Both the position numbers and the translations under genes were made by a program. Positions 314 to 29,328 of a DNA stretch of 38,067 nt are shown piece after piece (within the stretch, counting starts at the first letter, position 1; every line of letters starts with the position of its first letter). The DNA comes from Deltaproteobacteria bacterium (lineage in GTDB: Bacteria; Desulfobacterota; Dissulfuribacteria; Dissulfuribacterales; Dissulfuribacteraceae). Under the pieces are notes generated by a model. The model made no database searches and was not told the DNA's origin. It saw only the letters and a list, made by a program, of their open reading frames with translations. The stretch lies in contig WGBU01000109.1 in assembly GCA_015494155.1 (NCBI GenBank), forward strand, positions 1 through 38,067, given 5' to 3'.

Positions 314-346
314 AAAAAAAGCAGCGCCCTTTTTAGGGGGCGCTGC
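314..346 (-). terminator. Rho-independent terminator of the leftward respiratory operon
   Basis: On the minus strand a 9-bp GC stem (GCAGCGCCC paired with GGGCGCTGC) is followed directly by a run of seven T. It lies about 40 bases after the stop codon of the octaheme cytochrome gene and closes the operon. Confidence 0.9.
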
Positions 347-386
347 CCAGGAGCAATTAGCCTGGAGGTCTACCAGGACGAAAACC

Positions 387-3300
387 CTACTTCATAAAGG
401 CCCTCCAAAGCTCACCGGTGATACCAGGGCCTCCTGTAACACCGCTTTCAACGGCTGCGTATTCACCGCCTTCGTATACCTTGACCAGGACATATGCACC
501 CATATGACCTACTACCTGGGCTTCTTCACAAGGCCTAAAGGCCGTCTCGCCCTCTTTTTTCCTGAGTATCTCAGCCTCGGCGCCTGAGAAGGGAAGACGT
601 ATGAACAAGGCCTCGTGGGATTCGCCTTCGATCCCCAGTTTTAGCACATAACTAGAGAGGAATCCTGCCCCCTCCACGTTTATTACCTGTTCCTGGGGCA
701 CAAAGCCCATCTCTGTAATCTCTGGCCTAAGCCCCTCTGGCACATAAAAGTAGAGCTTATCTGACCAGGGGCCGTTTACTACCTGCTTTAGATAATATGT
801 CTCCTTCTCTTCCTGGGTGAGAAATTGCGGGTCAATGCCTTCAAGCTCTTCTCCTCTAACACGACCCTCTGAGGTCATATAGAAGAGTTCTTCTGCATGG
901 TGTCTGCTGAGTTCAAGGACATCACTTGCCTTGGCACCTAGGAAACGCATTCCATTGGCCTCCACAGGCTCGATGTAGTCCACCTCACCGTCCACCACCA
1001 GGAAGCCATTGGGGTTCTGGACCTCCATCTTTCCAGTCTCCCTGTTGTAGCGAAGGAGCCTGTTTTCATCCTTGAACCAGGGTGGGGCCCAGGGGGCGTA
1101 TGCCACGATCTTGTCTGTTGCCCTGTGGGCACCCGGGTCCTTTGTGTAGTCGCCGTGACAGTCATAGCAAGACTGGGCGCCAAGGGCCTTTTCAGCAGGC
1201 TGTACCCCGTGGGTATCAGAAAAGTAATGGGCTGCTACAAATATTACTGGGTTCGGGTCTGTCTCACCCTCTGCCTTTAATACCTTTATAAGCGCCTCTT
1301 GCATGGCCCTTACGTCTTCGTCCCACCATAGATCCGGGAACCCATCGCCCGTGTGGTCAAACATCACATATCCACTGTCCTTAAGGACTATCTTTGCCAC
1401 ATTTGGATTCTTTGCCCATTCGGGGTCGTTGGGCGGGATGTTCACAAGGTCCATCGGGCTCAATGCAGTGGCAGAGACCCTGGGGAGAAAGTCCTGAATG
1501 GCTGCATTCATCTCCCTTATGTATAGGACCTTTGCGCCTCCATAGGCAAGGTCGCTCATGTCATGGTCTGGCTGTGGGTTTGTATCCACCCAGGTCATGA
1601 TGGTAATGGGGTTTCCTATTACGATCTGAGGATAGCCATTCATGCCATTTGCCCAGTATAGGGGTGGCTCGCTTTCAAGGTCATGGGCTGGGTCATAGCT
1701 TATGGGGATTCCCATCTGCTGCATCATGTTAAGGCTCATCTGGTAGAAATACTTCATGAAATCGAAGTTTGGATTGGTGGGCATACCATTTACGATGAGC
1801 CCCGGGTCAGCAGACTTGTTCATCTCGAAATAGCCTGCCATCTGGGATACAAAGTCCATGGGCACAATCCCGTTTCCGTCTGCATCTATGTGCTGGGTGA
1901 GCATATTTAGCTGACCAAGGCCATAGCCAGGGCTAGTCCCATAGACTGGAGGTATCCGGTATGGTCCAGGAAATGCCATGGCCTTTCCATCCCCGCCTGG
2001 GAGCACATTGTATCCAAAGCCATTGTCGAAGTTAAGATAATAGCCAAAAAGGTCATTGAAGGTCCTGAACCTCCACGTCCTCCTGTAGGGGATGTGGCAT
2101 GTCTGACAGGCGATCTCTGCAATGTGCCTCTCTGTATTCTCGCCGAACTTTTCTTCATGGGCACTTGCAGGGTTTGGCGCATCCGGGTCAAGCCCCATGA
2201 GGTGACAGCCCTCACAGCTCTTTGGCTTTGGATTGTTGTCAAGGTCGTTTCTCACCATATGGGCAGTGTCAGTACCCTTGAGTATATTGTGGAGGTCTTC
2301 AAGGTCTCCCTGCTCCCTAAAGTGACAGGTGCCGCAGCCGTGTTCCTTGCTCGACATATGGACATCAAAGCCCGAGGCCTCTTCGTCTTCTGTAAAGTTG
2401 ATGAAGGCCCCATTCTTCACCCAGTCTGCTGGCATACCAAGCCCAAATGGCCTCACATAATCCCAGTTGCTATTGCCTTCATCCCTGTACATCACATGGC
2501 ACTGGCCGCATACCCGCACCCACTTCCAGGAGTCACGGTCCTTGTATCCGCCGAACATATCCATGTGAAGTGCGCCGTCTCCGAGGTCCTGGACATTGTA
2601 GTATGCCCTGGGGGTCCACTCGTCACCCTCCTTCACTATCTTCACATAGGTTATGGGAGAGCCGTCCTGATCAAAATCAAGGCCCATGAGCTGTGCAGTG
2701 GGCATCATGTAGAAGAAATAGGGAAGTGCCTCGTGGAGCGCAGGCTGAATGCTCGATGGATCGATCTTCCCTGCCTGCAAGTCACTAAGGACCTTTGCAG
2801 TATCTATGGCGCCTGTAGCCTCATCCATGTAGGTCATGTCTCCCTGCATGGCAAGCCCCATGCCATACATGGTGGCACCCCATGCCATCCCCACCATCCC
2901 TGTATAGGGGATGCCCTGCCCTTCTACAAAGGGGGCGCGCATGTAATCCCTGGTGGAGGCCTGGGGATTGTCCCAGTCTGTATAGAATTTTCCGGTCTCA
3001 TAGGCCCTGAGTGGATATGGAATGGGAAGTAGATGACCGGTTTGGTCCTTTATGGCATAGCCATAGTTAAAGTCATTAAAGAACATGGCCATCATGTCTT
3101 CCATGGTGGCCTCCTCGGGAAGTATCCCCTTTCCCTTGAGGTAATTGAGAAAGCCTACGAAGAGCTCCTTAAGCGCATCGTTTGAGGCCATTAGCCTTTG
3201 CATCTCATCCTGTGGCCCATTGGGATTCGGCGTGTATTCTGCCCTTATCATGCCGTTTTCATCCCAGATCTTCTGTACATTTTGCCCATAGATGGCATAG

Positions 3301-4373
3301 GGGAGATTCACGCCCTGGGCCTCCATGCCCTTTAGGGCATCTGTCCACATCTTCATCATCTCGCCCACGATATCGCTTGGAAGCCTCATGAGGGGTATGA
3401 GAGAAGTGGGGCGTGTCATCCTCTGGGGTGAGCTCGTGTACTCCAGGGCAGTCTCTGCCTTGAGACCATTTTCAATGGGCATTCCAAGGGATATCTCTTC
3501 CACCTTGTGCCCTGCATCCCTTTTGGCAAATATCAAGAGCCTTGGTCTGAATGGCTGGGCCTTCAAGCCATCTGCGGTCTTAAGGGCATAGGGGCTTTCA
3601 GGATCGATATGACAGAGGAGACAGTCTGCTTCCATGACCCCTGACTTTGTCCAGTCGTGGCGCTTTGGCGCCCCGATCTCTGCCACAGTCTCCTCTATGG
3701 ACTTGTGGCTGATCAGTGCCTGGGTCGTGGCTGTGGGCGGATAGTCATAAAAGTCCCTGTCATAGGTGTGGACTGGCTCAAGGCTGGGGTCTGTATAGGG
3801 GATGACTGTTCCGTCACTTTGGACTATGCCTTCAGCAGGGCCTCCGCCTGGATGGCAGGAGTAGCACACTGCTGCCTCATCTGCCACACCCACGTCAAAA
3901 AAGTATGGTTTGCCCTCGCTTGTAAACGGGTCCTTAAGGCTCCCCCTCTCGCTCTTGGCCGCCAACTGGCGGTAGGAGGGGGGTCACCATGCACCAAACT
4001 GGCCCGGGCTAAGGAGATGCCCGTAGGCATTGGCCAAATACTTATAAAGCGTCCCGTCGTTGTGTTCGTCACTCCAGTGGTCACTCAAATTCTCACCATT
4101 TGGGCCTGCGCCCTCCCTGAAGTGAAAGGCCTTGGTGATCTCGTTGTAGTCATGGCATGCTCCACAGGTCTTCTTGGGACTATAGGCAGGACCGCGCATA
4201 TAGACCGTACCACTCGCAGTGGTGATGGTGTCTGTGGGGTCTAGTTGGTCCTTTATGGGGGTGCCGTTTTGGTCCAACAAGGTTACTGGTGGGTGCCCGA
4301 ATGAAATAGCGGGCAAGGAAATTGCGAAAAAGGCGAACCACAACACAGCGGACAGAGTCCGTTTCCTCTTCAT
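387..4373 (-). CDS. Octaheme c-type cytochrome, predicted selenoprotein (ExtKL-like), read through an in-frame TGA
   Basis: Read as one gene of 1328 residues: ATG at 4373, in-frame TGA at 3984-3986 (codon 130), continuing in the same frame to TAG at 387. A signal peptide (about residues 1-26) indicates periplasmic or outer-envelope location. Eight CxxCH motifs are visible: one before the TGA (residue 70, CGACH) and seven after it (CYSCH, CLLCH, CGQCH, CGTCH, CEGCH, CQTCH, CYDCH). The TGA follows SPGQFGAW and precedes PPSYRQLAAK; the paralogue at 32509-34938 has a TGA at the equivalent place. A SECIS-like hairpin follows the TGA. The centre is rich in Met, and unlike the paralogue there is no C-terminal membrane domain. 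Good ribosome site (AGGAGG). Last gene of the operon. Closest named family is ExtKL (from memory). If Sec is not inserted, only a 129-residue monoheme fragment would be made. The catalytic role is unknown. Confidence 0.85.
3942..3982 (-). promoter_or_regulatory. Bacterial SECIS-like stem-loop of the 1328-residue cytochrome gene
   Basis: On the coding (minus) strand, immediately after the TGA, an outer stem CCCCCTC (3976-3982) pairs with GAGGGGG (3942-3948). An inner stem CCGCC (3968-3972) pairs with GGCGG (3959-3963) around the tetraloop AGTT (3964-3967). The loop GU lies 17 bases after the TGA, close to the spacing in the E. coli fdhF SECIS. The inner stem-loop matches those of the two other TGA-containing genes in this window. 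By analogy it would recruit SelB and Sec-tRNA. Confidence 0.8.
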
Positions 4374-4560: not shown

Positions 4561-6066
4561 TCAAAATTCTGCCTGAAGCCTAGAAAAGAATGCAAGTTTG
4601 TCTCTGAGTTCACCTTTTCTGGAAGTAAAGCTATTTCCTCCATATACCCCCTGATAATAGCCACTTATGCCATCCCTTAGCCTGGCATATGAAAGACCGG
4701 TATCCAGGGCGAAAAATTTATTGAATCTGTAAGTGAGCATCCCCATTAAATCCACTCCAAGCTGGCTGCTTCTGCCTTCAGGCACACTGGTATTTCCATA
4801 CCAGCCTGCGGCGAGATGATAGCTCATCCTGGATGAGAGATGGCCTTCATACCTTATTTGAAGAGTGGTAAGTCCGTGGCCATTGTTTGAGATATTTACC
4901 GCATCTGAATCAAAGCCAGTATCAGTTGGCCCCTGAACTGTCAAAAGACCGGTGTATCCCCAGTATCCATAGGTCCTGGAAAGGGCCATTACTGGCAAAA
5001 ATCCACTGCCATCTTCCTCGCCAGATGCATAACTTGCAAGTATCCCGAGGTCCCCTGAAAAGACGTGTCCGTTTATCTCAAGGAAGGTGGCTATCCCCAT
5101 CCCATCACCCCTTGACCCTAGGAGCTGATTGTCTGTAAAAGAACCAAGCAAGAAACCATTTAGGCCCCACTCATCATTTATGGCATATTCTACTCCGAGC
5201 CCGTAGTTAAAATGTGGGCGAGTATGGCCACCTACCGGGGCCGCAACCTCAAGATATGCCCCACCAATCTTTATCTTAAGGTCTTTTCCTGGACTGAAGA
5301 TGTAGTCCAGTCCATAATGGGTAAAATCGTCGTGTGCCAGGGGTTCGTCGCCTTCATCCAGCTCGCCCCCAAATGCCCTGAATTCTCCAGGGCCAAGGTG
5401 GGCTGAAAGGCTCATGGCAAGTGGATTGTAATCCCAGTCAGACGAAAAGAGGGTGTCATGGAATATGTCGCTAAGGGGCAGGATGCCTGCATCAAACCGC
5501 GTGTTCTCTGTAAACTTATAGCCCATCACTGCATGCCTAACCTTTATATCGTTCCTGGTGGTCCCGATGTTTCCTGTGGTGTGTCCGAGCTCGAGCTGTA
5601 GGTGTGTAGAAAATGCCTCATCAAACCTAAAATCAATGTTTTGCCTTACGCGCAATCTGCTTGCAGCAATGTGTTCACCTCCCACTGAATCGTGGACCGT
5701 ATAGCTGTTTATCCTGTATTGACCACCAAAATCCACTTGGAAGCCAGGGCCTCCCCCTTGCTCACCCTGGGCTTCTTTATCTATTGGGCCTCGCTCCCTA
5801 TCCTTATAGGCTGACATAAAAAGCTCGATTTCCCGGTCCCTTTGCCTAAGCGCACGCCTTAAGGCCTCCTGCTCCTCATGGAGCCTTTTTATCTCCCGTT
5901 CCTTTTCGGCCATTTGGGCCTTAAGCATTTTTAGCTCTTTTATTACATATTGAATCTCTTGGCGACTTTCATCTTCTGCAAGCGAGTAGGAAGAAACAGC
6001 AAAACATATGAAAATTGAAGCCATGATGGCGCACCCTGCAGTCTTAAAAAAACCTATCCTGGACAC
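4561..6066 (-). CDS. Outer-membrane beta-barrel porin with N-terminal coiled coil
   Basis: 501 residues from GTG (6064-6066), which is preceded by AAGGAGG at 8 bases; the stop is TGA. A signal peptide (about residues 1-30) is followed by a highly charged heptad-rich coiled coil (about 32-92), probably a periplasmic or peptidoglycan-facing trimer stalk. A Gly/aromatic-rich barrel with alternating hydrophobic strands fills the rest. The protein ends in Phe (LQAEF), the usual signal for BAM-dependent insertion. No heme motif and no Cys after the signal peptide. It lies between the other porin and the octaheme cytochrome, which suggests the pore through which the cytochrome or its substrate reaches the outer face. 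Exact porin family not identified; the cargo is unknown. Confidence 0.8.
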   Translation of the reverse strand: MSRIGFFKTAGCAIMASIFICFAVSSYSLAEDESRQEIQYVIKELKMLKAQMAEKEREIKRLHEEQEALRRALRQRDREIELFMSAYKDRERGPIDKEAQGEQGGGPGFQVDFGGQYRINSYTVHDSVGGEHIAASRLRVRQNIDFRFDEAFSTHLQLELGHTTGNIGTTRNDIKVRHAVMGYKFTENTRFDAGILPLSDIFHDTLFSSDWDYNPLAMSLSAHLGPGEFRAFGGELDEGDEPLAHDDFTHYGLDYIFSPGKDLKIKIGGAYLEVAAPVGGHTRPHFNYGLGVEYAINDEWGLNGFLLGSFTDNQLLGSRGDGMGIATFLEINGHVFSGDLGILASYASGEEDGSGFLPVMALSRTYGYWGYTGLLTVQGPTDTGFDSDAVNISNNGHGLTTLQIRYEGHLSSRMSYHLAAGWYGNTSVPEGRSSQLGVDLMGMLTYRFNKFFALDTGLSYARLRDGISGYYQGVYGGNSFTSRKGELRDKLAFFSRLQAEF

Positions 6067-6095: not shown

Positions 6096-6131
6096 AAAAA
6101 AAGGGGCAGGCCCCGGTTTAGAGGCCTGCCC
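6096..6131 (-). terminator. Internal terminator or attenuator between the two porin genes
   Basis: On the minus strand GGGCAGGCC (6123-6131) pairs perfectly with GGCCTGCCC (6104-6112) and is followed by a run of T (6096-6102). It lies about 60 bases after the stop of the porin at 6192 and only about 30 bases before the start of the next porin. The space between terminator and start codon is too short for a full promoter plus leader, so partial read-through (lower expression of the distal porin and cytochrome) is the likely effect. Confidence 0.85.
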
Positions 6132-6191: not shown

Positions 6192-7532
6192 TTAGAATTT
6201 TAGCTGATAGACCAATTGAAACTGATAGTCATCCCCTAGATTGTTGTTGGGTGAAGGGAGTTTGTGGAGCTTTCCTGCGTCTTCATCGTAGTCAACGGTC
6301 TGGAATACGGCCATTAGCATATTCCCCTTGTAGATGTCATAGGAAAGCCCTCCTATGAAGAGATCATAGCTTGTGTCTTCTGCAATATCGTCGTCTTTGT
6401 CCTGATCAAAGTGATCGTAGCGGGCAAGCACTGCAAGTTTTGGCATGAAGGGCATCCTTACACGGCCAAAGAATGAATACCCTTCGGTCTCAAGTTCATC
6501 CTTAATGGATCCATCAGGATTGGTAGCCACCCAGGACCCTCCTGCATTTCCAGTGGTCCTGAAGTACTGGGCCGTAAATATGTACATTGGATTTTCAAGG
6601 CTGATGTATCCAAGATTTACCATGTAGTCAGGCTTTTCACCTTTGTAGTCCTTATTGCCTTCACCAAACATACCCAGATAGCTGATCTGAAGGCCTGGAA
6701 TCACATTTGGAAGTGGACGGAACGTAAGGCGTGCCTCTACTGCCTTATTGTTGTTGGCCTCGTCTGCATGGTATCCAGAGCCATTGTAAACACCTATATG
6801 CCAGCTACCGTAAAGGCCATCGTAGTGGTGATTTCCAGTCTTGGCCTTGGCATCCGCCAGTTTCCCGCCAAAGTTACCCCTGAGGCTCAGTCCAAGGTCT
6901 GCAGAATTGAAGACACCCGCCCTCTCGATGGCCATGGTCCCCTGGGCACGGTATGGATTTACGTGCTCCTGGAAATCCAGCCACGGGTTGTGCCCCTGGC
7001 CTAGCTCTATCTTCATGTTGGTAAAAATGCCTACATCATGGGGCTTAAATTCTGCATACAGATACTTTAGGCGGTACTCCCAGTCCCCATCGGCCTTTCG
7101 GGTAATATCACTGGTGATCCTTGCAGCGAGCCAGTCGTTGATCTGTTTTTTCACAGTAAGATAGCCCCTTCCAAGGGTAAAGCGATTGAAGCTATCTTCC
7201 CGGTCTCCACTCTCTGGTTTTACACCTATGTCGTAGTGTATATAGCCAAGCCCAGAGATCTTAAGCCCTTTTAATGCCTTTGGGAGTGGACCTGACTTCT
7301 TTGCAACCTCCTCAACCACTTCTTTTCGTTCCTTGGCCTTCATCTGTTCCACCTCTGCCCTGACCTGAGCGGCCTCCTCTGGTGTGAGGATGCCCTTTTT
7401 TATGAGGACTCTTAGTAGCGGATCGTCTGCATCTGCCCTGGCCTTTTGTGGAACAGCCACAAAAAATGCGCCCCAAAAGGCAAGTGCCAAGAAGAACACC
7501 CCTAGTTTCCCTAATGCTTTAGAACACTTCAT
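6192..7532 (-). CDS. Outer-membrane porin, phosphate-selective porin O/P-like (ExtI-type position)
   Basis: 446 residues. The ATG at 7532 is chosen over an upstream start because AAAGGAGG lies 8 bases before it and a normal signal peptide follows (MKCSKALGKLG... to about residue 33, ending ARA). Next comes a short helical segment, ILTPEEAAQVRAEVEQMK, typical of these porins. A barrel with repeated aromatic-girdle strands ends in Phe (YQLKF). Weakly collinear with the ExtI-like Sec porin at 29906-31291, but with an ordinary residue in place of Sec. It starts 31 bases after the rhodanese lipoprotein, the same H-then-I order as in the Geobacter ext locus (from memory). Transcription appears to be partly ended by the hairpin at 6096-6131. 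Substrate unknown; an oxyanion is plausible. Confidence 0.8.
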   Translation of the reverse strand: MKCSKALGKLGVFFLALAFWGAFFVAVPQKARADADDPLLRVLIKKGILTPEEAAQVRAEVEQMKAKERKEVVEEVAKKSGPLPKALKGLKISGLGYIHYDIGVKPESGDREDSFNRFTLGRGYLTVKKQINDWLAARITSDITRKADGDWEYRLKYLYAEFKPHDVGIFTNMKIELGQGHNPWLDFQEHVNPYRAQGTMAIERAGVFNSADLGLSLRGNFGGKLADAKAKTGNHHYDGLYGSWHIGVYNGSGYHADEANNNKAVEARLTFRPLPNVIPGLQISYLGMFGEGNKDYKGEKPDYMVNLGYISLENPMYIFTAQYFRTTGNAGGSWVATNPDGSIKDELETEGYSFFGRVRMPFMPKLAVLARYDHFDQDKDDDIAEDTSYDLFIGGLSYDIYKGNMLMAVFQTVDYDEDAGKLHKLPSPNNNLGDDYQFQLVYQLKF

Positions 7533-7563
7533 GAATAAGACCTCCTTTAAAGATATTTTTTGG

Positions 7564-8373
7564 TTAACACCCAAAATCCTCTTCATCGTCATCATCTCCC
7601 GCCGATGCAGGAGTTGAATCTCCAGTCTCAGGACTTTTTAAAGCCTTTCTATTGACGCCTTCTTGAGCCCCTTTTTTTGGCGGCATTTTATGCACGGTAA
7701 CGTCTCCACCTGTCCGTGAGAGCCATTCCCGATAGGCCCTGTAGCCCCCTGCAAGGTTGAGAACGTTCTTAAAGCCCAAAAGCCTCAAGGCCTCCATTAC
7801 ATAGTTGGACCGGTGCTGCGACCTACAGACTATAAGGATCGTAGTTGTGGCATTGTCTGGCAGAAGATCCAGGTGCTTTAACACACTTCGAAAGGGGACA
7901 TTTATGGCACCTTTAAGGTGGCCTTTATCGAACTCCTCTGGTTCTCTCACATCCAGTATGAAGAAACGCCTTCCGCTTCGCCTGGCCTTTAAGAAGTCCC
8001 AGGGCATGAGCTTGTACCTGTCTTCTGGGATATGCGAGAGAAAGTTATCCACCTCAAAGGCAATGACCGCTTTCCTGTAATATTCCCAGGCAAGCCTGTT
8101 TTGGGGGTCCACAGTAAGAAGCCTTTTAAGGCCCTCCACTGCTTCCTCATAGCGGGCCTTTTTAAAATCCTCTCTGGCAGCCGCCATGAGGGCATTTACA
8201 TCAACTGCATAATTGATCCCATCCGTTCCATCTGGCCCCCTCCTGTCTCCAGGGAGGGCCTCAGAGGTGGTGGAAAGGACGGTTCTTTCATCCTTCCCAC
8301 CATCTGAGCAACCCAGGAGCGTAATGGAGGCAAAAAACACCACTAATAGGGCCAAAAACAGGAGTCGTCTCAT
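7564..8373 (-). CDS. Rhodanese-domain lipoprotein (ExtH-like)
   Basis: 269 residues. The signal peptide ends in the lipobox LLGC with the lipidated Cys at position 22, placing it in the periplasm on a membrane. Residues about 60-105 form a TPR-like helical pair (ARYEEAVEGLKRLLTVDP). Residues about 125-225 are a single rhodanese domain with the active-site loop CRSQHRS, catalytic Cys183, and the preceding LDVREPEEFDKGHLKGAINVP signature. Such domains carry persulfide or perselenide on the Cys. The C-terminus is acidic and ends DDEEDFGC, leaving a terminal Cys. It lies between the molybdoenzyme and a porin. A rhodanese beside a porin matches ExtH-ExtI of Geobacter, and rhodanese proteins also accompany some respiratory selenite reductases (from memory). 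Confidence 0.88.
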   Translation of the reverse strand: MRRLLFLALLVVFFASITLLGCSDGGKDERTVLSTTSEALPGDRRGPDGTDGINYAVDVNALMAAAREDFKKARYEEAVEGLKRLLTVDPQNRLAWEYYRKAVIAFEVDNFLSHIPEDRYKLMPWDFLKARRSGRRFFILDVREPEEFDKGHLKGAINVPFRSVLKHLDLLPDNATTTILIVCRSQHRSNYVMEALRLLGFKNVLNLAGGYRAYREWLSRTGGDVTVHKMPPKKGAQEGVNRKALKSPETGDSTPASAGDDDDEEDFGC

Positions 8374-8393
8374 TAGAACCTACCTATACGGGT

Positions 8394-11300
8394 TTAGACC
8401 TTCTCCAGGCGGACCTTTGAGTCGTAAAAAGAGCAGCTTCCACCTATAGGGTCAGTTAGACACATGTTTTTGACGGCTGGATCCACCATCATGGAGGCAT
8501 TGGGACAGATGCCTGTAAGGCGCCTTCTGTCTCCCTTTATCAATTTGTTGTCCACCACAACATCGCGCCCGCCATAGGCCCAGTGGCCAAAGCTCCAGCT
8601 AGCCACAACTGTGCCAGGCCTCACCCCTTCTTCCACACGGACAGTGCCTACAACAGGTTTTTCCTCGCCAGGAAGTATTGGTATTGTGCCCTTGGGATTT
8701 GTGGGGCCAACAATGCGGACCCTGTCACCGTCTTTGAGACCAAGGCGCCTTGCATCCAGGGTATTTATCTGCACATAGTTTTCGCCAAGCTCGCTTACCA
8801 TGGTCCAGTAATTGCTGATGGTCCTGGACTGGCCACCCAGGATGTGTTTGTAAGTGAAGAGCTGAAACTCGTATCTCTCAGGAAATACCACTGGTCTTCC
8901 CGCTGCATCTTTGACAGGCTCGTAAATGGGAATCCCTGAGAAATTCTCACCTGTAAATGAGTTCTTGCCCAGGGCAACATGTTCAACAAAGAGATTGAAC
9001 TGGCTCTTGAATTGATGCCTTACCTTATCACCAACATATGCCCTGCTTGCATCCTCGAATCGGCCTCCGCGATTTAGCACATAGACCACCCGCCGCCAGA
9101 GATCTTCGTCTTCACCAATGGCCCTCTTCCAGCGCGCCTCATCAAAGGTGGCCTTCGTAAGGTGTCTCCTTGCAGCCTTGAAGATGGAGAGTTCTTCCCT
9201 GTCTGCCAGGGGGACTTTATCCTTTCCGCCATGGTCACCAAAGGCGATATTTGCCACTGCCTTGAGGTAAAATTCGTCCCTGTGGGTAAAATCAAGGTTA
9301 GGGGCAAAGCCGTCTTTGCCATAGCCTGGAAGCCCCATCTTCTCTGCTATGGCCAGCATGACCGCCTCCATGGATATGTGCTGCTCCACGCCAAAGACCT
9401 TGCATGTCTCCACCAGCGACTCCACAGCAGGCTGACGCACCTTGCTCCCTGCTGTGGGGCATGCGGGGGTAAGGTGAGGGGTCCCCCAGCGCTCCCATAT
9501 GGCAGTATCAGGGAAGATGTAATCTGCATACATGGTGGTCTCACCAATGACGATATCGTCTGCTATTATAAGGGGTATCTCTTTGGGATCCCTCAGTATC
9601 TCAATGGTGGAGTTGGCCCCTGGCACAGACAGAGCCGGGGTACCCTTGTGGAGCCATAGGAATTTTATCCTGTAGGGGTAACCATCAGCAGCGCTTGGAA
9701 TGACCTCTTGATATACATTGCCCGTATATGGATACCACGTCCTCTTTGCAGGATAGCCATCCTTTTGAAACAGGGTTGTGTCCTCATAGCGCCACTTCTC
9801 ACGGGTAAGGGTGATGCCGTAGGAGCCGATCTTGCCTGGATGGAGCCCCTTCTTGAGGTTGAAGGGCTGGCCCTTCTTGCTCCCATCCTCGTGCCAGTGG
9901 CCGCCTCCCTTCATCATTCCGCCCTTCCAGTCACAATTACCCACAAGGAGATTGAGGGTTATGATGGCAGTGCCGTTGTAATAGCCATTGGTGTGCTGGA
10001 CAGGGCCACGGTACATATCTGCCACCGCCTTGCGCCCGTGGCTTGTGAACTCTCTTGCAAGCTCAATGAGCTGCCTTACTGGAACACCTGCCTCTTTTGC
10101 CCATTCCTCAAGGCTCTTTTCCATTACAACATCGCGAAGGAGGGCGAATGCGGTCTTGTACTTGACCCCGTTAATCTCTCCCTCTGCAAAGATATCTCCC
10201 ACCACAGGCTCACCGCCCTTGGCATATGGGTCAAAGGTCACCACCTTTCCGTCTGATACAGCCATAAAGAGGTGCTGATCGCAGACATTACACTCATCAC
10301 CCCTCAAGAGCTTTACCCCACGCTTTCCATCGTCTGAAAGCCTTACGAGATGGGTGGCATTGGTCCAGGTGGTATCGCCATTTAAGCTGGCAGCAGCCCT
10401 GTTGGCTGCCCTTAAGTACGCCTCGTTGTAGCGCTTATTCTCAATGATCCAGCGGATCATCCCCAGGGCCAGAGGTGCATCGCCTCCTGGTTTTACAGGG
10501 ACCCAGTAGTTTGCCCTTGCTGCGGTCTTGTTGAGCCTTGGGTCCACTACGGCAAACTTGAAATTCTTTTTGGCCTGGGCGTTGGTTATGTAGGAAACCC
10601 AGTGTGTTGGTCCAAAATTGGCCTCAAATGGGCTGGTCCCAAACCATATTACAAACTCAGCATTGGGGACATCGGGCTTTAGATGGTGTTTTCCTCCGCC
10701 ATAATCCTCAAAATACTCCTTGAGCATTGGATGCCATCTGCCGCCCTTGTATTTGGCTGTCATCTCGTTGAAGGCTATGTGGTGCGACTGTTCACAGACT
10801 GTGGTGTGTTCGTACCAGTTCACAGAGCCAAAGGCGTTTTTCACAAAGCGCTTGGCAAATTCCTTTCTCCCGTGCTCGATTCGGCCTGCAAGGAATACAA
10901 ACTGGTTATTGATGGGGCCGAGATCAGGGTGATTGGGATCAATGAGCTTGTTGAGGTGCTGTGAGTGCTTGGCCTTAAATTGCTCCACACTCATCTTGCC
11001 CATTTGAACCTTCTTGGCATCCTTTTTAAGGGCCTTCATGAGCTTTCCATCCCTTACTGCCCATATATCCTTAAGGCCCGGCACATTCCCCTCTCCAAAG
11101 AGATTGCCACCCTCCACGATCTCCTGGATGGCCTTGTCAAAGTCTATGGTTACCCACTTGTTCTCACCGCGTTTTGTTCCGGGTTTCCTCTTTAGTACCT
11201 TTCTAATCCTGTAGGGATCGTAGAGGGTCTGGACCCCTGCCTGCCCCTTGGGACAAAGCCTTCCATCGTAGAGGACAGCCTCTTTTGGATCGGTGTCATA

Positions 11301-11627
11301 GGAAAGATGCGGGTTCAAATTCATGGGGCTATATGGGTTGCCATCCACCTTTACCATGATCCCGTCCAGAATCTTTGCCTTGATGGTACAGGCTGTGTGG
11401 CACTGGAGGCAGCAGGTATAGATGACGTTTTCAGGTTTATCAAAAGGATATGCGTTCTGGCCTAAAAGGGTGCCTGCACTGGCGAGTTTGTCCACAAGCC
11501 CCATGCCCGGGACCTGGCTCAATGCAGCTATTCCACCAAAGAAGGCAGCACTCTTAAGGAAACATCTCCTGGTCATCTTTATCTTCTCACCGTCGATTTC
11601 CACTGTCTTCTTCCTTATATCTTTCAT
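8394..11627 (-). CDS. Tat-exported molybdopterin oxidoreductase catalytic subunit (TtrA/PsrA/SrrA-like)
   Basis: 1077 residues from ATG 11627, chosen because GGGAGG precedes it and the twin-arginine motif TRRCFLKS (residues 19-26) then sits correctly at the N-terminus. A 4Fe-4S site follows: C73-x2-C76-x3-C80 and C125 (LCPKG). Cys278 in TTVCEQSHH is at the position of the molybdenum ligand. The C-terminal molydop-binding domain is intact. The long form (over 1000 residues) and the ADYIFPDTAIWERW motif resemble the tetrathionate/selenate/arsenate reductase side of the DMSO reductase family. It partners with the NrfD subunit, whose stop is 2 bases upstream, and the 4Fe-4S subunit, forming a quinone-linked periplasmic reductase or oxidase. 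Substrate not determinable; tetrathionate, polysulfide, selenite or selenate are candidates. Confidence 0.9.
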   Translation of the reverse strand: MKDIRKKTVEIDGEKIKMTRRCFLKSAAFFGGIAALSQVPGMGLVDKLASAGTLLGQNAYPFDKPENVIYTCCLQCHTACTIKAKILDGIMVKVDGNPYSPMNLNPHLSYDTDPKEAVLYDGRLCPKGQAGVQTLYDPYRIRKVLKRKPGTKRGENKWVTIDFDKAIQEIVEGGNLFGEGNVPGLKDIWAVRDGKLMKALKKDAKKVQMGKMSVEQFKAKHSQHLNKLIDPNHPDLGPINNQFVFLAGRIEHGRKEFAKRFVKNAFGSVNWYEHTTVCEQSHHIAFNEMTAKYKGGRWHPMLKEYFEDYGGGKHHLKPDVPNAEFVIWFGTSPFEANFGPTHWVSYITNAQAKKNFKFAVVDPRLNKTAARANYWVPVKPGGDAPLALGMIRWIIENKRYNEAYLRAANRAAASLNGDTTWTNATHLVRLSDDGKRGVKLLRGDECNVCDQHLFMAVSDGKVVTFDPYAKGGEPVVGDIFAEGEINGVKYKTAFALLRDVVMEKSLEEWAKEAGVPVRQLIELAREFTSHGRKAVADMYRGPVQHTNGYYNGTAIITLNLLVGNCDWKGGMMKGGGHWHEDGSKKGQPFNLKKGLHPGKIGSYGITLTREKWRYEDTTLFQKDGYPAKRTWYPYTGNVYQEVIPSAADGYPYRIKFLWLHKGTPALSVPGANSTIEILRDPKEIPLIIADDIVIGETTMYADYIFPDTAIWERWGTPHLTPACPTAGSKVRQPAVESLVETCKVFGVEQHISMEAVMLAIAEKMGLPGYGKDGFAPNLDFTHRDEFYLKAVANIAFGDHGGKDKVPLADREELSIFKAARRHLTKATFDEARWKRAIGEDEDLWRRVVYVLNRGGRFEDASRAYVGDKVRHQFKSQFNLFVEHVALGKNSFTGENFSGIPIYEPVKDAAGRPVVFPERYEFQLFTYKHILGGQSRTISNYWTMVSELGENYVQINTLDARRLGLKDGDRVRIVGPTNPKGTIPILPGEEKPVVGTVRVEEGVRPGTVVASWSFGHWAYGGRDVVVDNKLIKGDRRRLTGICPNASMMVDPAVKNMCLTDPIGGSCSFYDSKVRLEKV

Positions 11628-11629
11628 GG

Positions 11630-12877
11630 TTATGCAACCTCCCTGTCTTCTTCGTTTACTATTGGCAACAGCGTGTAACCTATGAGAAAGAGGAGTGCGC
11701 CGAGGGATGACACCCAGATAGTGACCAGCCACTCCATCATGGTGGGCATATAGTGGTATTCCAGGCCTGGCCCGGTAAATGCATACTGGAGCCCCTCTAT
11801 CTCAGGACTGACCTGGGCAGGGATGACGATGTTGAGCCTTACGGCCATGAAGGTGACTGCAATGAGGAGTCCTGCAAAGGCAATGGCGGCCGCACCATTT
11901 TTTACCTTTTGAGATACTGCGTTTTTAAACAAGAGGACTGACGGGACAAAGACCCCAAAGAATACGTGCACTATCCAGAACACATACCAGTATTTTCCAA
12001 AGAGTACGGCCTTGATGGGCTCTGCCTCGTCTGGAATACCGGGATACATCCCCACAAAGTATTCTGCTATCTCAAGGAGAAAGTCTATAAGGACGAGGGC
12101 AAGGACCACCTTTCCAAGGTATTTCATCATCTCTCTAAATTGTTCCCTGTCCCTGTCCGGACCCCAGACATACACAATGGCAGTAAGCAAGGCACCACCA
12201 GAGGCCAGGGCGCCTACCAGAAAGGCAATGGGCGTTAGCCCGCTGTGCCAGTAGGTTCGGGCACCCACCACACCAAAGAGCGCACCCACACCTCCGTGGA
12301 AGGCAATGGCCAAGGGGACCCCTATGGTGCCAAGGACCTTTAATACCTTGCGGTCCCTTTGAATGGATTTGGGTGATGTGTCAGTGCTTCCAAAGGAAAG
12401 TATACTACAGATGCCAGAGCCCTCCCTGGCCTTTTTAATGAGGTCCACCCTCATGGCAAACCAGAGCTCCACCAAGATCACCAGAAAGTAGGAAGAATAG
12501 AGTATCCCCATCCAGGTCATCATGGACCTAAGATTCCCGTGGAGCACTACCCTATAGACACGGCCCATGTGGCCTAGATCCATCCATATTGAGAGAAGGG
12601 CAGCTATTAGACAGCCAAATGCCGTAAAGAGTGCGAGTTTCCCGATCTTTTCAAGCTTTTCCACCCGTACCACATAGACCAGGGTGGACAGCAAAAAAGA
12701 ACCTGCTGAAAGACCGATAAAATAGATATATGCTGCAACCCATAGGCCCCATGGTATGTATGAACCATAGTCTGTATGGATGTGGCCTGTGGTAATACGC
12801 TGGTAGAGCCCATAGAACCCCACCACAAAGCCCACAATGGCTATGAGCCAAACCAGTCCGCTGATTGTCTTCTTCAT
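11630..12877 (-). CDS. NrfD/PsrC-like quinone-interacting membrane subunit
   Basis: 415 residues with about ten predicted membrane helices (roughly 5-28, 43-70, 77-102, 119-142, 180-207, 213-240, 250-280, 298-320, 330-357, 379-405). Acidic and His residues lie inside helices, for example in the segment WMDLGH. It belongs to the NrfD/PsrC/TtrC type of b-heme-free quinol-oxidising anchors. It sits between the 4Fe-4S and catalytic genes, as in many Psr/Ttr operons. ATG at 12877 with AAGGAGGG before it. Expected role: exchange of electrons between menaquinone and the 4Fe-4S subunit at the periplasmic face. Confidence 0.9.
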   Translation of the reverse strand: MKKTISGLVWLIAIVGFVVGFYGLYQRITTGHIHTDYGSYIPWGLWVAAYIYFIGLSAGSFLLSTLVYVVRVEKLEKIGKLALFTAFGCLIAALLSIWMDLGHMGRVYRVVLHGNLRSMMTWMGILYSSYFLVILVELWFAMRVDLIKKAREGSGICSILSFGSTDTSPKSIQRDRKVLKVLGTIGVPLAIAFHGGVGALFGVVGARTYWHSGLTPIAFLVGALASGGALLTAIVYVWGPDRDREQFREMMKYLGKVVLALVLIDFLLEIAEYFVGMYPGIPDEAEPIKAVLFGKYWYVFWIVHVFFGVFVPSVLLFKNAVSQKVKNGAAAIAFAGLLIAVTFMAVRLNIVIPAQVSPEIEGLQYAFTGPGLEYHYMPTMMEWLVTIWVSSLGALLFLIGYTLLPIVNEEDREVA

Positions 12878-12889
12878 CTCTGTCCCTCC

Positions 12890-13615
12890 TTACACCAGGT
12901 ACGTTGTGGCCGGCTTAGTGCCAAAGCCTTCTTTTAGCCTCATTACCCTCGGAGACCCCAGGAGCTCTGCCACAAGGCTTTCAGGGTCATTGGCATCACC
13001 AAAGTAGGTGGCATCTCCAAGGCAGGTTGTAACACAGGCGGGCAGCATCCCCTTATCGAGCCTGTGGACACAGTAGGTGCACTTTCTGGCGTTGCCCACA
13101 GGTGAATCCTCCCGATTGTTCCTCGGCCAGACCTTGCCATATTCAAAGGCCGGCTTCTTCTCGTATTCAGGGATATACGGGGTACCATCACTGTAGTAGT
13201 AGCCCTTGTCAAAGGTACGTGCAGAATAGGGGCAGGCATTTATGCAATAGCGGCACCCTATACACTTTTCGTAGTCGATCTCTACGATGCCATCAGGTCT
13301 CTTCCACGTGGCACTGGCAGGGCAGACCTTTACACATGGGGGGTTCTCACACTGCATGCAGGGCCTGGGAAGAAAATTTTTCCTGACATTCGGGTATCTG
13401 CCTATCTCCTTTTCGATCACAGGCCGGTACACCACCCCTGGGGGAAGGTGATTTTCAGCAACACACGCAGTGGTACAGGCAGTACAGCCCACACACTTTT
13501 GAAGATCTATAACCATGGCCCAACGCCTCTTTTCCATGGGCCTTTTAAGGGCACGTCTGAGGTCTTCCATCATACGCTGGCGGACCTCACCGGGACTCAT
13601 GTCGATTATGGCCAT
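12890..13615 (-). CDS. Four-cluster 4Fe-4S electron-transfer subunit (TtrB/PsrB-like)
   Basis: 241 residues with the four Cys groups of the DmsB/PsrB family: [11 protein letters not shown] near residue 41, [26 protein letters not shown], and [20 protein letters not shown]. This gives four 4Fe-4S clusters wiring the NrfD subunit to the molybdoenzyme. No signal peptide is visible, so export would be with the Tat-carrying partner. An insertion of about 30 residues (around residues 135-165) rich in Tyr and Pro lies before the last Cys group. First gene of the operon: ATG 13615 with AGGAGG 6 bases upstream, and a candidate regulator box at 13731-13746. Confidence 0.92.
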
Positions 13616-13975: not shown

Positions 13976-14647
13976 TTATAGGAGCCCCAGCTTCTTTACT
14001 AGCTTTACAATGGAGGCCCTGTTCTTTACACCGAGCTTTGCCATTGCCCTTGACCTGTAGGTTGAGACCGTCTTTTCACTGAGATAGCACCTTTCTGCTA
14101 TCTCCTTGCTGGTGTAGCCCTTTGCTACTGCCTCAATTACCTCTCTTTCCCTTGGGCTCAGACTGTTCCAGAGGATATCTTCCTTTGTAGGATTGGCCTC
14201 CTTGGCGTCATCTTTCTCAGATGCCATCTGCTTGAATACGCCCTTTAACATGCGCGGATGGATATAACACTCCCCTCGCATCACTGCCCTTATGGCATAT
14301 ATAAGGTCTGAATCCATGGCACGCTTTAAGACGAATCCAGCAGCCCCATGGTCCATAGCCTTTTGGAGATAGCTCTGATCCTCGTGCATTGTGAGCATGA
14401 GGATCCTGGTGGAAGGGCTCTTTTCAATAATCTGGCCTATAATTTCAAGCCCGCTTCTATCAGGAAGAGAAATGTCAAGGAGAACGCAGTCGGGCCTCCT
14501 CTCCTCCACCAAGCTAAGAGCGCTCTGGGCATCTTCAGCCTCTCCCACCACCTCCATATCCTCTTCCTGCTCAAGTAACATCTTAAGCCCTGACGCCAGG
14601 ATACGGTGATCATCAACGATTACGATGGAAATTTTATTTTGCGTCAT
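13976..14647 (-). CDS. NarL/FixJ-family response regulator (signalling unit 1)
   Basis: 223 residues: receiver domain (about 1-125) with phospho-acceptor Asp58 in LLDISLP and the acidic pair in VDDH, then a LuxR-type helix-turn-helix (about 155-220) with LSPREREVIEAVAKGYTSKEIAE. Start ATG 14647 overlaps the end of the kinase gene by 14 bases, so the two are translationally coupled. The closest relative in the window is the regulator at 21016-21675. It lies directly upstream of, and on the same strand as, the first respiratory operon, its most likely target. The stop codon touches the end of the repeat at 13754-13975. Confidence 0.93.
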   Translation of the reverse strand: MTQNKISIVIVDDHRILASGLKMLLEQEEDMEVVGEAEDAQSALSLVEERRPDCVLLDISLPDRSGLEIIGQIIEKSPSTRILMLTMHEDQSYLQKAMDHGAAGFVLKRAMDSDLIYAIRAVMRGECYIHPRMLKGVFKQMASEKDDAKEANPTKEDILWNSLSPREREVIEAVAKGYTSKEIAERCYLSEKTVSTYRSRAMAKLGVKNRASIVKLVKKLGLL

Positions 14648-16088
14648 CTCTCACTCCCGTGTCACCTGATACGGGTATGACAAAATCAATCATGGTCCCA
14701 TGGCCTGGTGAAGAACGGATGTTTAAGCGCCCTCTTAAGAGCCTGGCCCTCTCCTTCATGCCATAGAGCCCCATACTCTTTCTGTTAATGGCCTTTTTGT
14801 CAAATCCTATCCCGTCATCCTCTACAACGGCCCTTATCTCCTGGTCTCTGGCCTCTAAGATTATGGTAACTTTCTTTGCCTTTGAATGTCTAACTATGTT
14901 TGTAAGGGCCTCCTGGATGATCCTGTAGACACTTGTCTCAGTAAGGGGGTCAAGTCTTCTCTTGTCAAGCCCAATTGGCACAAAATCCACCTTGATGCCA
15001 GATCGGGAGACATAGTCTGAGATATAACGCTCTATAGCAGGAACAAGCCCCATATCATCCAGCACACTTGGCCTGAGATACAAGACCAGGTCGTGAATGG
15101 CGTCCAATTCCTGTGTAATGGTGTTACGGAGTCTGTCTATGCGTTCGAGCATGATATCCTTGCTGGAGGCACTTTCTATTAATGTTAGATCCAGGCGTAA
15201 TGAAGCAAGTGTCTGCCCGAGCTGATCATGTAATTCCCGTGCAATCCTCTGGCGCTCTTCTTCCTGGGCCAGGATGGTGCGCCTCAAATACTCCTGTCTT
15301 AGACTTTCCCGTTCTTTTCTGAGCCTCTCCACCTCACCAAGCCGGTTTAACATGTCGTTAAAAGCCTCTACAAGTTCACCTATCTCATCCTTGGAACTGC
15401 CCTTTACCCTTATGGAATAATCTCCCTGGCGTACTGCTCTCGTGGCATGTAGCAGGGCGTTTATAGGACGGGTGAGCAGCCAGGTTAAAAAGGCTGAAAA
15501 GAACAGGCCGAAGATGGCTACCGCCGTCACAGTCATTAGCATTGAATTCAAAAGGGCATGGATCACATGCATTGCTCTTTTGGTTGAAACACCTACCCGC
15601 ACCACCCCCAATGTACCTTCCAGTATCGGGGCTGCACAGTCCCACACTACCCCTTCATTGGTATTGAGCATGAGTGGAGACCCGTTTGATTTGTTCATAG
15701 GGTAATTTCTCACGTTAAGCAGGTCTTCGGGGAACCCCCCGTGAAAGGTATGGGCTATGACCTCGTTTTTTGAAGAGACAATGAATGCATATCTCAGATC
15801 CCGCCGGTTTTTAACAGCAGACCTCATCATCCTTGTTACGCCAAACAAATCATTGACAAGTATATAGTCAGGGGCACGGGATGCCAGCTCCCTTGCCACA
15901 GAACAACTTACGTCCTGAAGCTGTCTCATGGTCTCCTGCATCATTACCCGCTTAACCTGTAATGTAGTAAACAGGGCTATTGCTAGGGCCGTCCCTATCA
16001 CCATTCCCATTATCTTAAAGCGCAAGGGCACGGCATTTGCGATGTACCACAGGGCGTCTAATATTTTTTTTACTACAGTGGGTTTCAT
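14634..16088 (-). CDS. HisKA_3-type sensor histidine kinase with small extracytoplasmic domain (signalling unit 1)
   Basis: 484 residues: a first membrane helix (about 25-45); an extracytoplasmic sensor (about 47-180) with Cys62 and Cys151 (VVWDCAAPI), both conserved in the paralogue at 19599; a second membrane helix (about 183-206); HAMP (about 207-260); a dimerisation helix with phospho-acceptor His287 in RIARELHDQLGQ; and a HATPase domain with VEDDGIGF and GLYGMKERA. This is the NarX/DegS-like class that pairs with NarL regulators. It starts 7 bases after the stop of the PhnD-like lipoprotein, which probably acts as its ligand-binding partner: a split version of TtrS, where binding domain and kinase are one protein. 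Confidence 0.92.
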   Translation of the reverse strand: MKPTVVKKILDALWYIANAVPLRFKIMGMVIGTALAIALFTTLQVKRVMMQETMRQLQDVSCSVARELASRAPDYILVNDLFGVTRMMRSAVKNRRDLRYAFIVSSKNEVIAHTFHGGFPEDLLNVRNYPMNKSNGSPLMLNTNEGVVWDCAAPILEGTLGVVRVGVSTKRAMHVIHALLNSMLMTVTAVAIFGLFFSAFLTWLLTRPINALLHATRAVRQGDYSIRVKGSSKDEIGELVEAFNDMLNRLGEVERLRKERESLRQEYLRRTILAQEEERQRIARELHDQLGQTLASLRLDLTLIESASSKDIMLERIDRLRNTITQELDAIHDLVLYLRPSVLDDMGLVPAIERYISDYVSRSGIKVDFVPIGLDKRRLDPLTETSVYRIIQEALTNIVRHSKAKKVTIILEARDQEIRAVVEDDGIGFDKKAINRKSMGLYGMKERARLLRGRLNIRSSPGHGTMIDFVIPVSGDTGVRDDAK

Positions 16089-16095
16089 GGGCTCA

Positions 16096-17019
16096 CTATT
16101 TGGAGCATGGCTGGTCTTTATATTTTAGACACGGGGCGCTATAGAGCTCCATGGTGGGTCTTACGAATCTGTCAATGCCCAGGTGCTTGAGCGCTGCTCT
16201 TCCGTCCGGGTCTTCGTGCATATGAAGGAATATAGATTCTAGCTTTTTGCGCTTGATGGACGAGATATTCGCGGGAACTACTACGGGTGGCATCCCAAAA
16301 TCTTCTGACTTCATGATAACCTTCAACTTTTCCTTAAGGCGCGGATCTTTTCTGAGGGCATTTTTGAAGACTATGCTGTCAACGGATGCACCGTCTGCCA
16401 CCCCGTCCACCACAGCCATTATTGAGCGGTCATGGCTGTAGGTGAAGATGGTCTTACGAAAGAACCCGTCTGGGGTTGAACACCGCTCAGAAAGGAGGTG
16501 TAGTGGATACAGATACCCTGTGTTTGAAAGGGGATCAGTAAAGGCAAACACCTTTCCCCTGAGATCGTCAAAGCTTCGAATATTACTCTTTGCGGACACA
16601 ATTATCACTGCATTGTAGGTCACCTTTCCATCTATCTCAGGCACGACCAATATGGACATGGGGTGCATTTTCTCTTGCTGGATATATGCCCCTGTACAGA
16701 TGAAGGCCAAATCCACCCTGTTTTTGGCAATCATATCATTTACTTCCCAGTAGGTCCTTCTCTGTATGAGCTGGGTTTTTCTGTTGAGCTTTTCACCAAG
16801 ATATGCCAAAAGGGGCCTGTATGATTCCACAGTGCCTTCTGGGGAGACAATGGCTGCCACTGCCACCCTGAGCGGGATACTGGAGGTTTCTGGCCTGGCA
16901 GCCGCAAGTGGCTTGAGCTTATCCAGTCTGATGACTGGGGCCTTTTGTTCCTCTTTTTTAGTATCACACCCCGGGAGCAACAGGCATAATATGAGTAAAA
17001 ACACCCACGGGAAGCTCAT
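16096..17019 (-). CDS. PhnD/TtrS-like periplasmic binding lipoprotein (signalling unit 1)
   Basis: 307 residues from ATG 17019, chosen because a clean lipoprotein signal follows (MSFPWVFLLILCLLLPGC). In-frame ATGs at 17070 and 17133 would give longer N-termini, and no strong ribosome site decides between them. The mature part is a PhnD-like (phosphonate-binding-like) solute-binding fold with IVSPEGTVESYRPLLAYL, QRRTYWEVNDMI, DLAFICTGAY, FTDPLSNTGYLYP and GVADGASVDSIVF. Such domains form the sensor part of TtrS (tetrathionate). A Cys in the FICTGAY segment is conserved in the paralogue at 18695. No permease genes are nearby, so a sensory rather than uptake role is favoured. Confidence 0.85.
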   Translation of the reverse strand: MSFPWVFLLILCLLLPGCDTKKEEQKAPVIRLDKLKPLAAARPETSSIPLRVAVAAIVSPEGTVESYRPLLAYLGEKLNRKTQLIQRRTYWEVNDMIAKNRVDLAFICTGAYIQQEKMHPMSILVVPEIDGKVTYNAVIIVSAKSNIRSFDDLRGKVFAFTDPLSNTGYLYPLHLLSERCSTPDGFFRKTIFTYSHDRSIMAVVDGVADGASVDSIVFKNALRKDPRLKEKLKVIMKSEDFGMPPVVVPANISSIKRKKLESIFLHMHEDPDGRAALKHLGIDRFVRPTMELYSAPCLKYKDQPCSK

Positions 17020-17113
17020 TCCATCAGGACGGATACAGGACCAACAGTGTCTAAATAAAAATCGCCTCATAAGATCTAATGTAATATAGATATTGAATCC
17101 TTTAAAAGGGTTA

Positions 17114-17127
17114 TTTTGTAGGGAAAA
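17114..17127 (-). promoter_or_regulatory. TTTTCCCTACAAAA box upstream of signalling unit 1
   Basis: The minus strand carries TTTTCCCTACAAAA shortly before the possible start codons of the binding lipoprotein. It matches the boxes before both respiratory operons (13731-13746 and 21677-21692). It may be an autoregulatory site for one of the NarL-type regulators. This rests on sequence similarity only. Confidence 0.4.
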
Positions 17128-17191
17128 GTTCAACTGTTTGTAAATGTTTTGCTCTCATGACTGGGGGCTTAAAACAGATATTGCAATATGC

Positions 17192-18612: not shown

Positions 18613-18694
18613 TTAGCAGTTTACTAATTAGTTTAATTGGCTTACACTGAATTCAAGTCAGGTTCAAAACGAACATTTGAAGACGGCTGATAGC

Positions 18695-19591
18695 ATGAGA
18701 TTGATCCCCGCCATACTTTTATGCCTTATGGCCATGTTTTTAAACTCTTGTTCAGGCGAGAAGGGCAGGGACGAACAGGTAATCCGGTTAGACAAACTTG
18801 AAAAGATATCAGAAGAGGTCCCCATTTCAAAGACTTACAACAAGGGATTCGTGGTGGCGATTGCCGCAATCATCTCACCAGAAGGCACTGCCTCCTCCTA
18901 TGACCTGCTTCTGGAATATATCTCCCATAAGACCGGGCAACCGGTAAAACTGGTGCAAAGGCGCACATACTCTGAGATAAACAAGCTCATTGCCACCGGG
19001 TCTGTGGATCTCGCCTTCGTGTGCACAGGTGCATACATAAACAGCAAGGGAGGTACCATGAACATCCTGGCGGTCCCGGTGGTAAACGGGAAGACCACCT
19101 ATAAGGCCCTTGTAATCACCAGCAGGGATTCGGGGATATCCAGTTTTAAAGACCTCAGGGGAAAGACTTTTGCCTTTACAGACCCCCTGTCAAATACCGG
19201 ATATTTCTATCCAATTTCCCTCATTAGAGGGCTTGGCGAGACCCCCAATAACTTCTTTAAAGACACTTTTTTTACCTACAGCCATGACAAAGCCATCGTA
19301 GCGGTGGCACAGGGGATAGCTGATGGGGCGAGCGTTGACAACATAGTCTTTCAGAACCTCATAAAGAGGAAACCAGACATGGCCCGTCAATTAAAGATAA
19401 TACATGAGTCAAAGGAGTTTCCAATGCCCCCTGTGGTTGTGCCCAAAGACCTTCCAGTCCCTGAGCAGCTCATACTCAAAAAGCTTTTCTTGAAGATGCA
19501 CAGAGACCCCCTTGGCCAGGAGGCACTGAAGAAGATCGGGGTGGAGAGGTTCGTTCAGCCAGACATGAGCTTGTATTCCAGGGCAATTTAG
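18695..19591 (+). CDS. PhnD/TtrS-like periplasmic binding lipoprotein (signalling unit 2)
   Basis: 298 residues from ATG 18695; a TTG six codons upstream is possible but gives a poorer signal peptide. The lipobox FLNSC lies near residue 19, so it is membrane-anchored in the periplasm. The body repeats the motifs of the paralogue at 16096: IISPEGTASSYDLLLEYI, QRRTYSEINKLI, DLAFVCTGAY, FTDPLSNTGYFYP and GIADGASVDNIVF. The kinase gene follows after 7 bases. As in unit 1, no transport genes accompany it, which supports a ligand-sensing role feeding the kinase. The two proteins differ mainly in the N-terminal linker, so related but perhaps not identical ligands are expected. Confidence 0.87.
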   Translation: MRLIPAILLCLMAMFLNSCSGEKGRDEQVIRLDKLEKISEEVPISKTYNKGFVVAIAAIISPEGTASSYDLLLEYISHKTGQPVKLVQRRTYSEINKLIATGSVDLAFVCTGAYINSKGGTMNILAVPVVNGKTTYKALVITSRDSGISSFKDLRGKTFAFTDPLSNTGYFYPISLIRGLGETPNNFFKDTFFTYSHDKAIVAVAQGIADGASVDNIVFQNLIKRKPDMARQLKIIHESKEFPMPPVVVPKDLPVPEQLILKKLFLKMHRDPLGQEALKKIGVERFVQPDMSLYSRAI

Positions 19592-19598
19592 CTCAACC

Positions 19599-21675: not shown

Positions 21676-21887
21676 GATTTCCCCCTACAAATCATCTAAC
21701 TTTCTCCTCTATTCCCCAAACCCCACTTCTTTAGAATCAGCTTTAGTAAGCAATTAATAGCTATAATACAAATAAAAAGGAGGAAAAACATGACGTAACA
21801 GGCAAAGACTGAACTTTTGGGTTGGGGCAAAGGCATTGTTCTCCCTTATGGGATCAGAACAAATGGTTTGGCAAAAGAGGAGGTAAA
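21671..21887 (+). promoter_or_regulatory. Upstream region of the second respiratory operon
   Basis: The start holds TGTAGG-N7-CCTACA (21671-21689), an inverted repeat containing the shared TTTCCCCCTACA box. Further on a TATAAT (21762-21767) lies in AT-rich sequence without a convincing -35. A strong AAGGAGG then precedes ATG-ACG-TAA (21790-21798), a two-codon start-stop reading frame about 90 bases before the decaheme gene. Confidence 0.4.
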
Positions 21888-22775: not shown

Positions 22776-22777
22776 CC

Positions 22778-24727: not shown

Positions 24728-24741
24728 ATAAGGAGGAAACC

Positions 24742-25143: not shown

Positions 25144-25158
25144 GGGAGGTGAGATATC

Positions 25159-28080: not shown

Positions 28081-28110
28081 CAGACCATTGCTTAGAAAGG
28101 AGAAATAATC

Positions 28111-29315: not shown

Positions 29316-29328
29316 TCTCATTTAAGAT

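Follow-up and report, generated by a model that had tools for sequence, protein, structure and literature searches.

The combination of heme and selenocysteine (Sec) is only briefly documented in the literature that we found. One instance is ExtKL, published as a pentaheme ExtK followed by a TGA and then ExtL (PMC6148476; PMC5877670); the other is an entry in a 2026 selenoproteome table, 'tetrathionate reductase family octaheme c-type cytochrome, GenBank annotated' (PMC13188914). Octaheme tetrathionate reductases (OTRs), for which the enzyme of Shewanella oneidensis (PDB 1SP3) serves here as the reference, are periplasmic proteins of about 450–550 residues whose characteristic activity is the reduction of tetrathionate, nitrite or hydroxylamine. 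We describe a gene at positions 387–4373 (minus strand) of a 38,067-nucleotide stretch of DNA from a Deltaproteobacteria bacterium of the Dissulfuribacteraceae (assembly GCA_015494155.1, contig WGBU01000109.1), the whole of which is called the window below. Its product, referred to as the long form, is a c-type cytochrome of 1328 residues which almost certainly contains Sec at position 130, and the family to which it belongs is best filed as a Sec-bearing, much enlarged branch of OTR-like octaheme cytochromes.

Analysis of the reading frame confirms the layout described in the first-pass annotation of this DNA, including its count of eight hemes. A front part of 129 codons (4373–3984, minus strand) starts with ATG at 4373, encodes a signal peptide of the Sec secretion type and one CXXCH motif, and closes with TGA (3986–3984); it is followed in frame by the six codons for Pro-Pro-Ser-Tyr-Arg-Gln, then by TTG and an open frame up to the TAG at 387, in which seven further CXXCH sites are found. 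The first motif, CGACH (residues 70–74, positions 4152–4166, minus strand), lies upstream of Sec, and motifs 2–8 begin at residues 170, 251, 622, 680, 720, 756 and 1069 of the read-through product. The chance of a stop-free frame of 1192 codons behind a TGA is about 1e-25. Moreover, reassignment of TGA is excluded because only two of the 27 genes of the window, both of them octaheme genes, carry the codon in frame, and three others use it as their normal stop.

The TGA (3984–3986, minus strand) stands in the context GQFGAW[U]PPSYRQLAAK, and some 40 distinct genes, about 24 of them long forms from the order, have a TGA at the matching column. Across 60 related genomes the long form was found again, each time with a single TGA and always within GxW[U]PPSYRQ(L/V)A. 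Searching the organism's own genome with the read-through protein yielded two further copies, one of them long and located on a different contig (65% identity, a single TGA), the other short and located within the window, both with the TGA at the matching column. Nine other homologues have a different residue in place of Sec, namely Cys (long forms L095 and L096, short forms L044, L045 and L047), Leu (L092 and L098) or Tyr (L130 and L133), and none of the homologues ends at this position as a monoheme protein; Cys-form contexts such as GSW[C]PVSFRQLAAK and GRY[C]TVAPNFRQLARK occur alongside the Sec form GRY[U]SAAPNYRQLARK. In the two Leu-bearing loci (L092 and L098; L066, L067) the long octaheme unit is fused behind eleven additional N-terminal CXXCH motifs. 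A phylogenetic tree places the Cys and Leu long forms, as well as the Cys short forms, within Sec-bearing groups, and Sec has therefore been replaced more than once. Named carriers are metagenome-assembled genomes whose isolate names point, approximately, to hydrothermal vents, sulfidic caves and sediments as habitats; they belong to Desulfobacterota (Desulfobulbaceae and others), Calditrichota and Deferrisomatales, with more distant forms in Gammaproteobacteria, Acidobacteria and Zixibacteria.

The machinery for Sec insertion is complete in the organism's own genome, where the search for sel genes proposed in the first-pass annotation recovered selA (581 bits), selB (356 bits), selD (371 bits) and the selC product tRNA-Sec (75 bits), the last of which is called as SeC with anticodon TCA by ARAGORN. 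The selD gene (L171, G000:C161:12881-13804) has one in-frame TGA of its own and likely encodes a selenoprotein SelD. Among the genomes of relatives that bear a homologue, selB scores above the cut-off in 28 of 29, those with Cys forms only included, so that its presence cannot tell Sec from Cys genomes.

A hairpin of the type of the selenocysteine insertion sequence (SECIS) lies within the coding sequence directly after the TGA (3942–3983, minus strand). It is a nested stem of −23.1 kcal/mol that carries the apical stem-loop CCGCC-AGUU-GGCGG (3959–3972, minus strand); as in bacterial SECIS elements, the apical loop is short and contains G/U, and the hairpin is constrained at the codon level. 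Compared with dinucleotide shuffles the fold is unremarkable (z = −1.1). Since this test alone is uninformative, we used a synonymous-codon null, in which the protein is kept and the codons are recoded, and which gives z = −3.8 (0/200) for the gene at 387–4373. The same null gives a mean z of −2.2 over 38 distinct Sec-type sites, counts that are not independent because the sites share descent, versus values near 0 on average for the nine Cys/Leu/Tyr sites. Not all Sec-type sites are significant singly, and those of the short forms and of Calditrichota fold more weakly. All 38 Sec-type sites share the unchanged apical element CAGUUGGC, 37 of them have the hairpin core GCCAGUUGGC, and the loop Leu codon is TTG in 38/38 as against 4/9 of the non-Sec sites. 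The SECIS-like hairpin with an AGUU loop that had been noted beforehand is thus borne out by its fold and by its conservation in relatives as well as by the codon-level test.

As judged from its sequence, the protein is a distant relative of OTR and not a canonical OTR. TIGR04315 is the sole informative curated-family match (E = 5e-10 and 39.1 bits for the long form, P0001; 26.6 bits for P0002; curated cut-off 375). Comparison by hhalign with a profile of canonical OTRs yields E = 1.2e-10 for the long form and 2.4e-16 for the short form, and the alignment covers hemes 3/4–7 and a DVHM motif. The eight CXXCH motifs of the long form follow the same order as in OTR, the last one far downstream, and hemes 3–7 are homologous. 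Asp650-Trp-Val-Lys653 (2415–2426, minus strand) aligns with the Asp-x-Val-Lys of OTR, and both Asp650 and Lys653 are invariant across 19 long forms. Phylum members that are canonical OTRs match 1SP3 with E 1.6e-183; counting along this alignment, their NNFC contains Cys64 and their GGGGDAVKHG contains Asp150 and Lys153. In the structure reported in 2004, these three residues make up the active site, which surrounds heme 2 with its Lys ligand. Among the canonical OTRs of the phylum that were read (loci L138–L167), the Cys64 column (NNF[U/C]) is TGA in about half, in agreement with the selenoproteome entry cited above, which points to Sec-OTRs being common in Desulfobacterota; most of the TGA-bearing ones have a GGUGCAGGUGCACC hairpin after NNF[U].

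Like Cys64 of OTR, Sec130 lies between hemes 1 and 2, and its position between the same two hemes leads us to infer that both residues are spatially equivalent. The equivalence can only be inferred because the heme 1–2 segment is not alignable and the structural models are weak there. On the other hand, the long form differs from OTR in its length, in large insertions that separate heme 3 from heme 4 and heme 7 from heme 8 and a long C-terminal part, in its Sec context (GxW[U]PPSYRQLA vs. NNF[U]) and in its gene neighbours. The segment between hemes 3 and 4 (residues about 326–586, positions 2616–3398) is confidently predicted as an alpha/beta insertion.

Based on these comparisons, we consider it reasonably probable that the long form has an OTR-type active site and, with a similar degree of moderate confidence, that it works in the periplasm as an OTR-like Sec/heme enzyme reducing sulfur oxyanions or acceptors of a similar kind. 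UGA-130 is almost certainly decoded as Sec by SelB and tRNA-Sec at the hairpin just downstream, and the product is predicted to be secreted as a large octaheme c-type cytochrome. By analogy with OTR, the catalytic heme (heme 2 in OTR) would be liganded by the conserved Lys653, next to Asp650, and would receive electrons through the remaining hemes. Sec130, at the presumed place of OTR Cys64, may act as the nucleophile or redox partner that attacks the substrate chalcogen; as a stronger nucleophile than Cys that also cycles more readily, it would attack a chalcogen-chalcogen or chalcogen-oxygen bond beside the Lys-ligated heme. Candidate substrates are tetrathionate and other polythionates, thiosulfate, polysulfide and a selenium or tellurium oxyanion, and for any single one of these classes the assignment stays short of an even chance. 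Because the gene is encoded together with an outer-membrane barrel and, in most relatives, with a multiheme cytochrome as well, the barrel is the probable site at which substrate or electrons pass through the outer membrane. The mature product has a mass of about 145 kDa as computed from the sequence, or about 19 kDa per heme, a value that falls in the catalytic class of 'peptide-replete' cytochromes (PMC7096707). A catalytic role rather than that of a wire would fit this value.

Several observations weigh against this assignment. The 27–39 bits obtained with TIGR04315, relative to a cut-off of 375, place the family outside canonical OTRs, and the segment between hemes 1 and 2 that contains Sec gives no reliable profile alignment with OTR, leaving the Sec column unaligned. 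Leu or Tyr at the Sec site in some relatives shows that parts of the family can do without this residue. AlphaFold models are poor in the heme core: the short form is unusable (predicted local distance difference test, pLDDT, 47.6 overall), and the long form, modelled without hemes, reaches a pLDDT of 70.5 overall with much of the heme core below 50. The best Foldseek match of the long-form model is indeed 1SP3, but it is weak (E = 0.66), and the whole model with its alpha/beta insertion has no significant PDB match by Foldseek. Searches of the PDB with the family itself by phmmer and hmmsearch returned nothing relevant, short or biased matches such as gp41 being spurious.

The gene is preceded on the same strand by porinB, a putative outer-membrane beta-barrel of 501 residues (4561–6066, minus strand) for which no family match was found. 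The two belong to one transcription unit: the interval between them lacks any T-tailed terminator-like site, and a terminator-like hairpin 3' of the octaheme gene (319–348, minus strand) closes the unit. Upstream of porinB lies a molybdenum (Mo) operon (6192–13615, minus strand) encoding a TtrB/DsrO-like iron-sulfur (Fe-S) protein, NrfD, a TtrA-family Mo enzyme, a rhodanese lipoprotein and porinA. Genes for two Crp regulators and an RND pump lie upstream of the closest orthologue (74%) whose upstream sequence is available, and in about 25 other loci, that of the paralogue in the organism's own genome included, the genes that precede the Sec-octaheme gene encode a barrel of the outer membrane and a multiheme cytochrome. 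The barrels of the window have no significant similarity to the barrel of this paralogue. At locus L005 (7014–9348, minus strand) the conserved partner genes of the long family encode a barrel of 468 residues and a multiheme lipoprotein of the c type that matches QrcA weakly, a pair that possibly represents a new porin-cytochrome module.

The conserved order of barrel, multiheme cytochrome and Sec-octaheme gene could also be read as that of an electron conduit across the outer membrane, of the porin-cytochrome type, in which Sec would serve as a heme ligand or structural residue. A weak Pfam match to domain II/IV of the outer-membrane cytochromes MtrC/MtrF (PF22113) over hemes 4–7 points in the same direction; it probably reflects generic multiheme packing, the long form having neither the decaheme architecture nor the lipoprotein signal of these proteins. 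The amount of protein per heme and the large alpha/beta insertions are atypical for wires, the barrel and cytochrome partners vary among loci, and the exchange of Sec for Cys together with the conserved OTR active-site Asp and Lys favours catalysis, so that we regard a conduit as unlikely, if worth keeping in view. Hardly credible is the explanation that there is no Sec at all, the TGA being a true stop, an assembly error or a reassigned codon and the frame representing two proteins or a pseudogene. Gene callers would indeed cut the frame into 129 and 1192 codons. Against this stand the recurrence of the TGA in independently assembled genomes (about 40 distinct genes) and its alignment with Cys in other homologues, the full set of sel genes, the ordinary use of TGA as a stop elsewhere in the window and the codon-level constraint on the hairpin; code reassignment and a pseudogene were rejected on these grounds.

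The first-pass annotation had presented the gene as an ExtKL-type selenocytochrome, the terminal gene of the Mo operon, and thus as part of a new system together with the molybdoenzyme and the rhodanese. The genes do adjoin on one strand, and the order rhodanese lipoprotein, porin, Sec-cytochrome superficially resembles extHIJKL; like ExtKL (Geobacter sulfurreducens GSU2937-2936; NF040886), the long form is a multiheme c-type selenocytochrome with porin genes nearby and, in this window, a rhodanese. ExtKL differs in having five hemes with Sec last, in being part of the ext cluster and in lacking any sequence match to the long form. Indeed, P0001–P0003 do not match NF040886 at E<=1, the organism's own genome has no match to it above the cut-off, and the true ExtKLs of the phylum carry Sec after all five hemes in the unrelated context IPDG[U]PTPNR; membership in ExtKL is rejected. 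The linkage with the Mo operon fails as well. A strong intrinsic terminator-like hairpin (6104–6131, minus strand; 11 pairs, T7) separates the operon from porinB and the octaheme gene. The operon is moreover conserved in G005 and G006, where the octaheme gene does not adjoin it (the two are about 490 kb apart in the single-contig G006), and among roughly 45 long-form loci examined it is nearby only at this one, the usual neighbours being a barrel and a multiheme cytochrome. Joint action as one ExtKL-type system is accordingly very improbable. The long form and the Mo reductases of the neighbouring operon (TtrABC, PhsA-Psr) may act on related sulfur substrates; the operon is a separate transcription unit with no conserved linkage to the Sec-octaheme gene.

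The short copy in the window (32509–34938, minus strand) is a Sec-octaheme paralogue of 809 residues with a C-terminal membrane tail, which aligns to the long form with E = 6e-50; its in-frame TGA (Sec127; 34558–34560, minus strand) stands in the context GQYGGRW[U]TPAP, and both Sec and Cys versions of this short paralogue occur in other genomes. A second respiratory cluster (18677–31291, plus strand) encodes an MtrA/DmsE-like multiheme cytochrome, an MtrB-like barrel of 649 residues and a small cytochrome, as well as a Mo reductase of the twin-arginine translocation (Tat) type (Ttr/Phs/Dms kind) with an Fe-S subunit, a chaperone-like protein and a porin. Two paralogous sets of a PhnD-like periplasmic binding protein, a histidine kinase and a NarL/LuxR-type regulator (13976–17133, minus strand; 18677–21675, plus strand) face apart, one adjoining each Mo cluster, and are possibly oxyanion sensors. 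At 37037–37496 (minus strand), a fluoride riboswitch (52.4 bits) directly precedes a crcB-like gene for a fluoride channel.

Our literature search found no paper on the long family, and no curated family claims the long form. Since the Sec TGA splits these genes in automatic annotation, a large family of periplasmic enzymes is probably invisible in databases. We tentatively propose, as a suggestion that may well prove wrong, that its members are giant Sec/heme reductases of a kind not described before, in which Sec would act directly at a catalytic c-heme and which, together with outer-membrane barrel-cytochrome modules, would reduce sulfur, polysulfide or selenium/tellurium oxyanions at the envelope of uncultured Desulfobacterota, Calditrichota and others from hydrothermal and sulfidic habitats. 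If true, heme and selenocysteine catalysis would be joined in one active site, and the long family makes it testable why OTR-type enzymes need Cys or Sec beside the catalytic heme.

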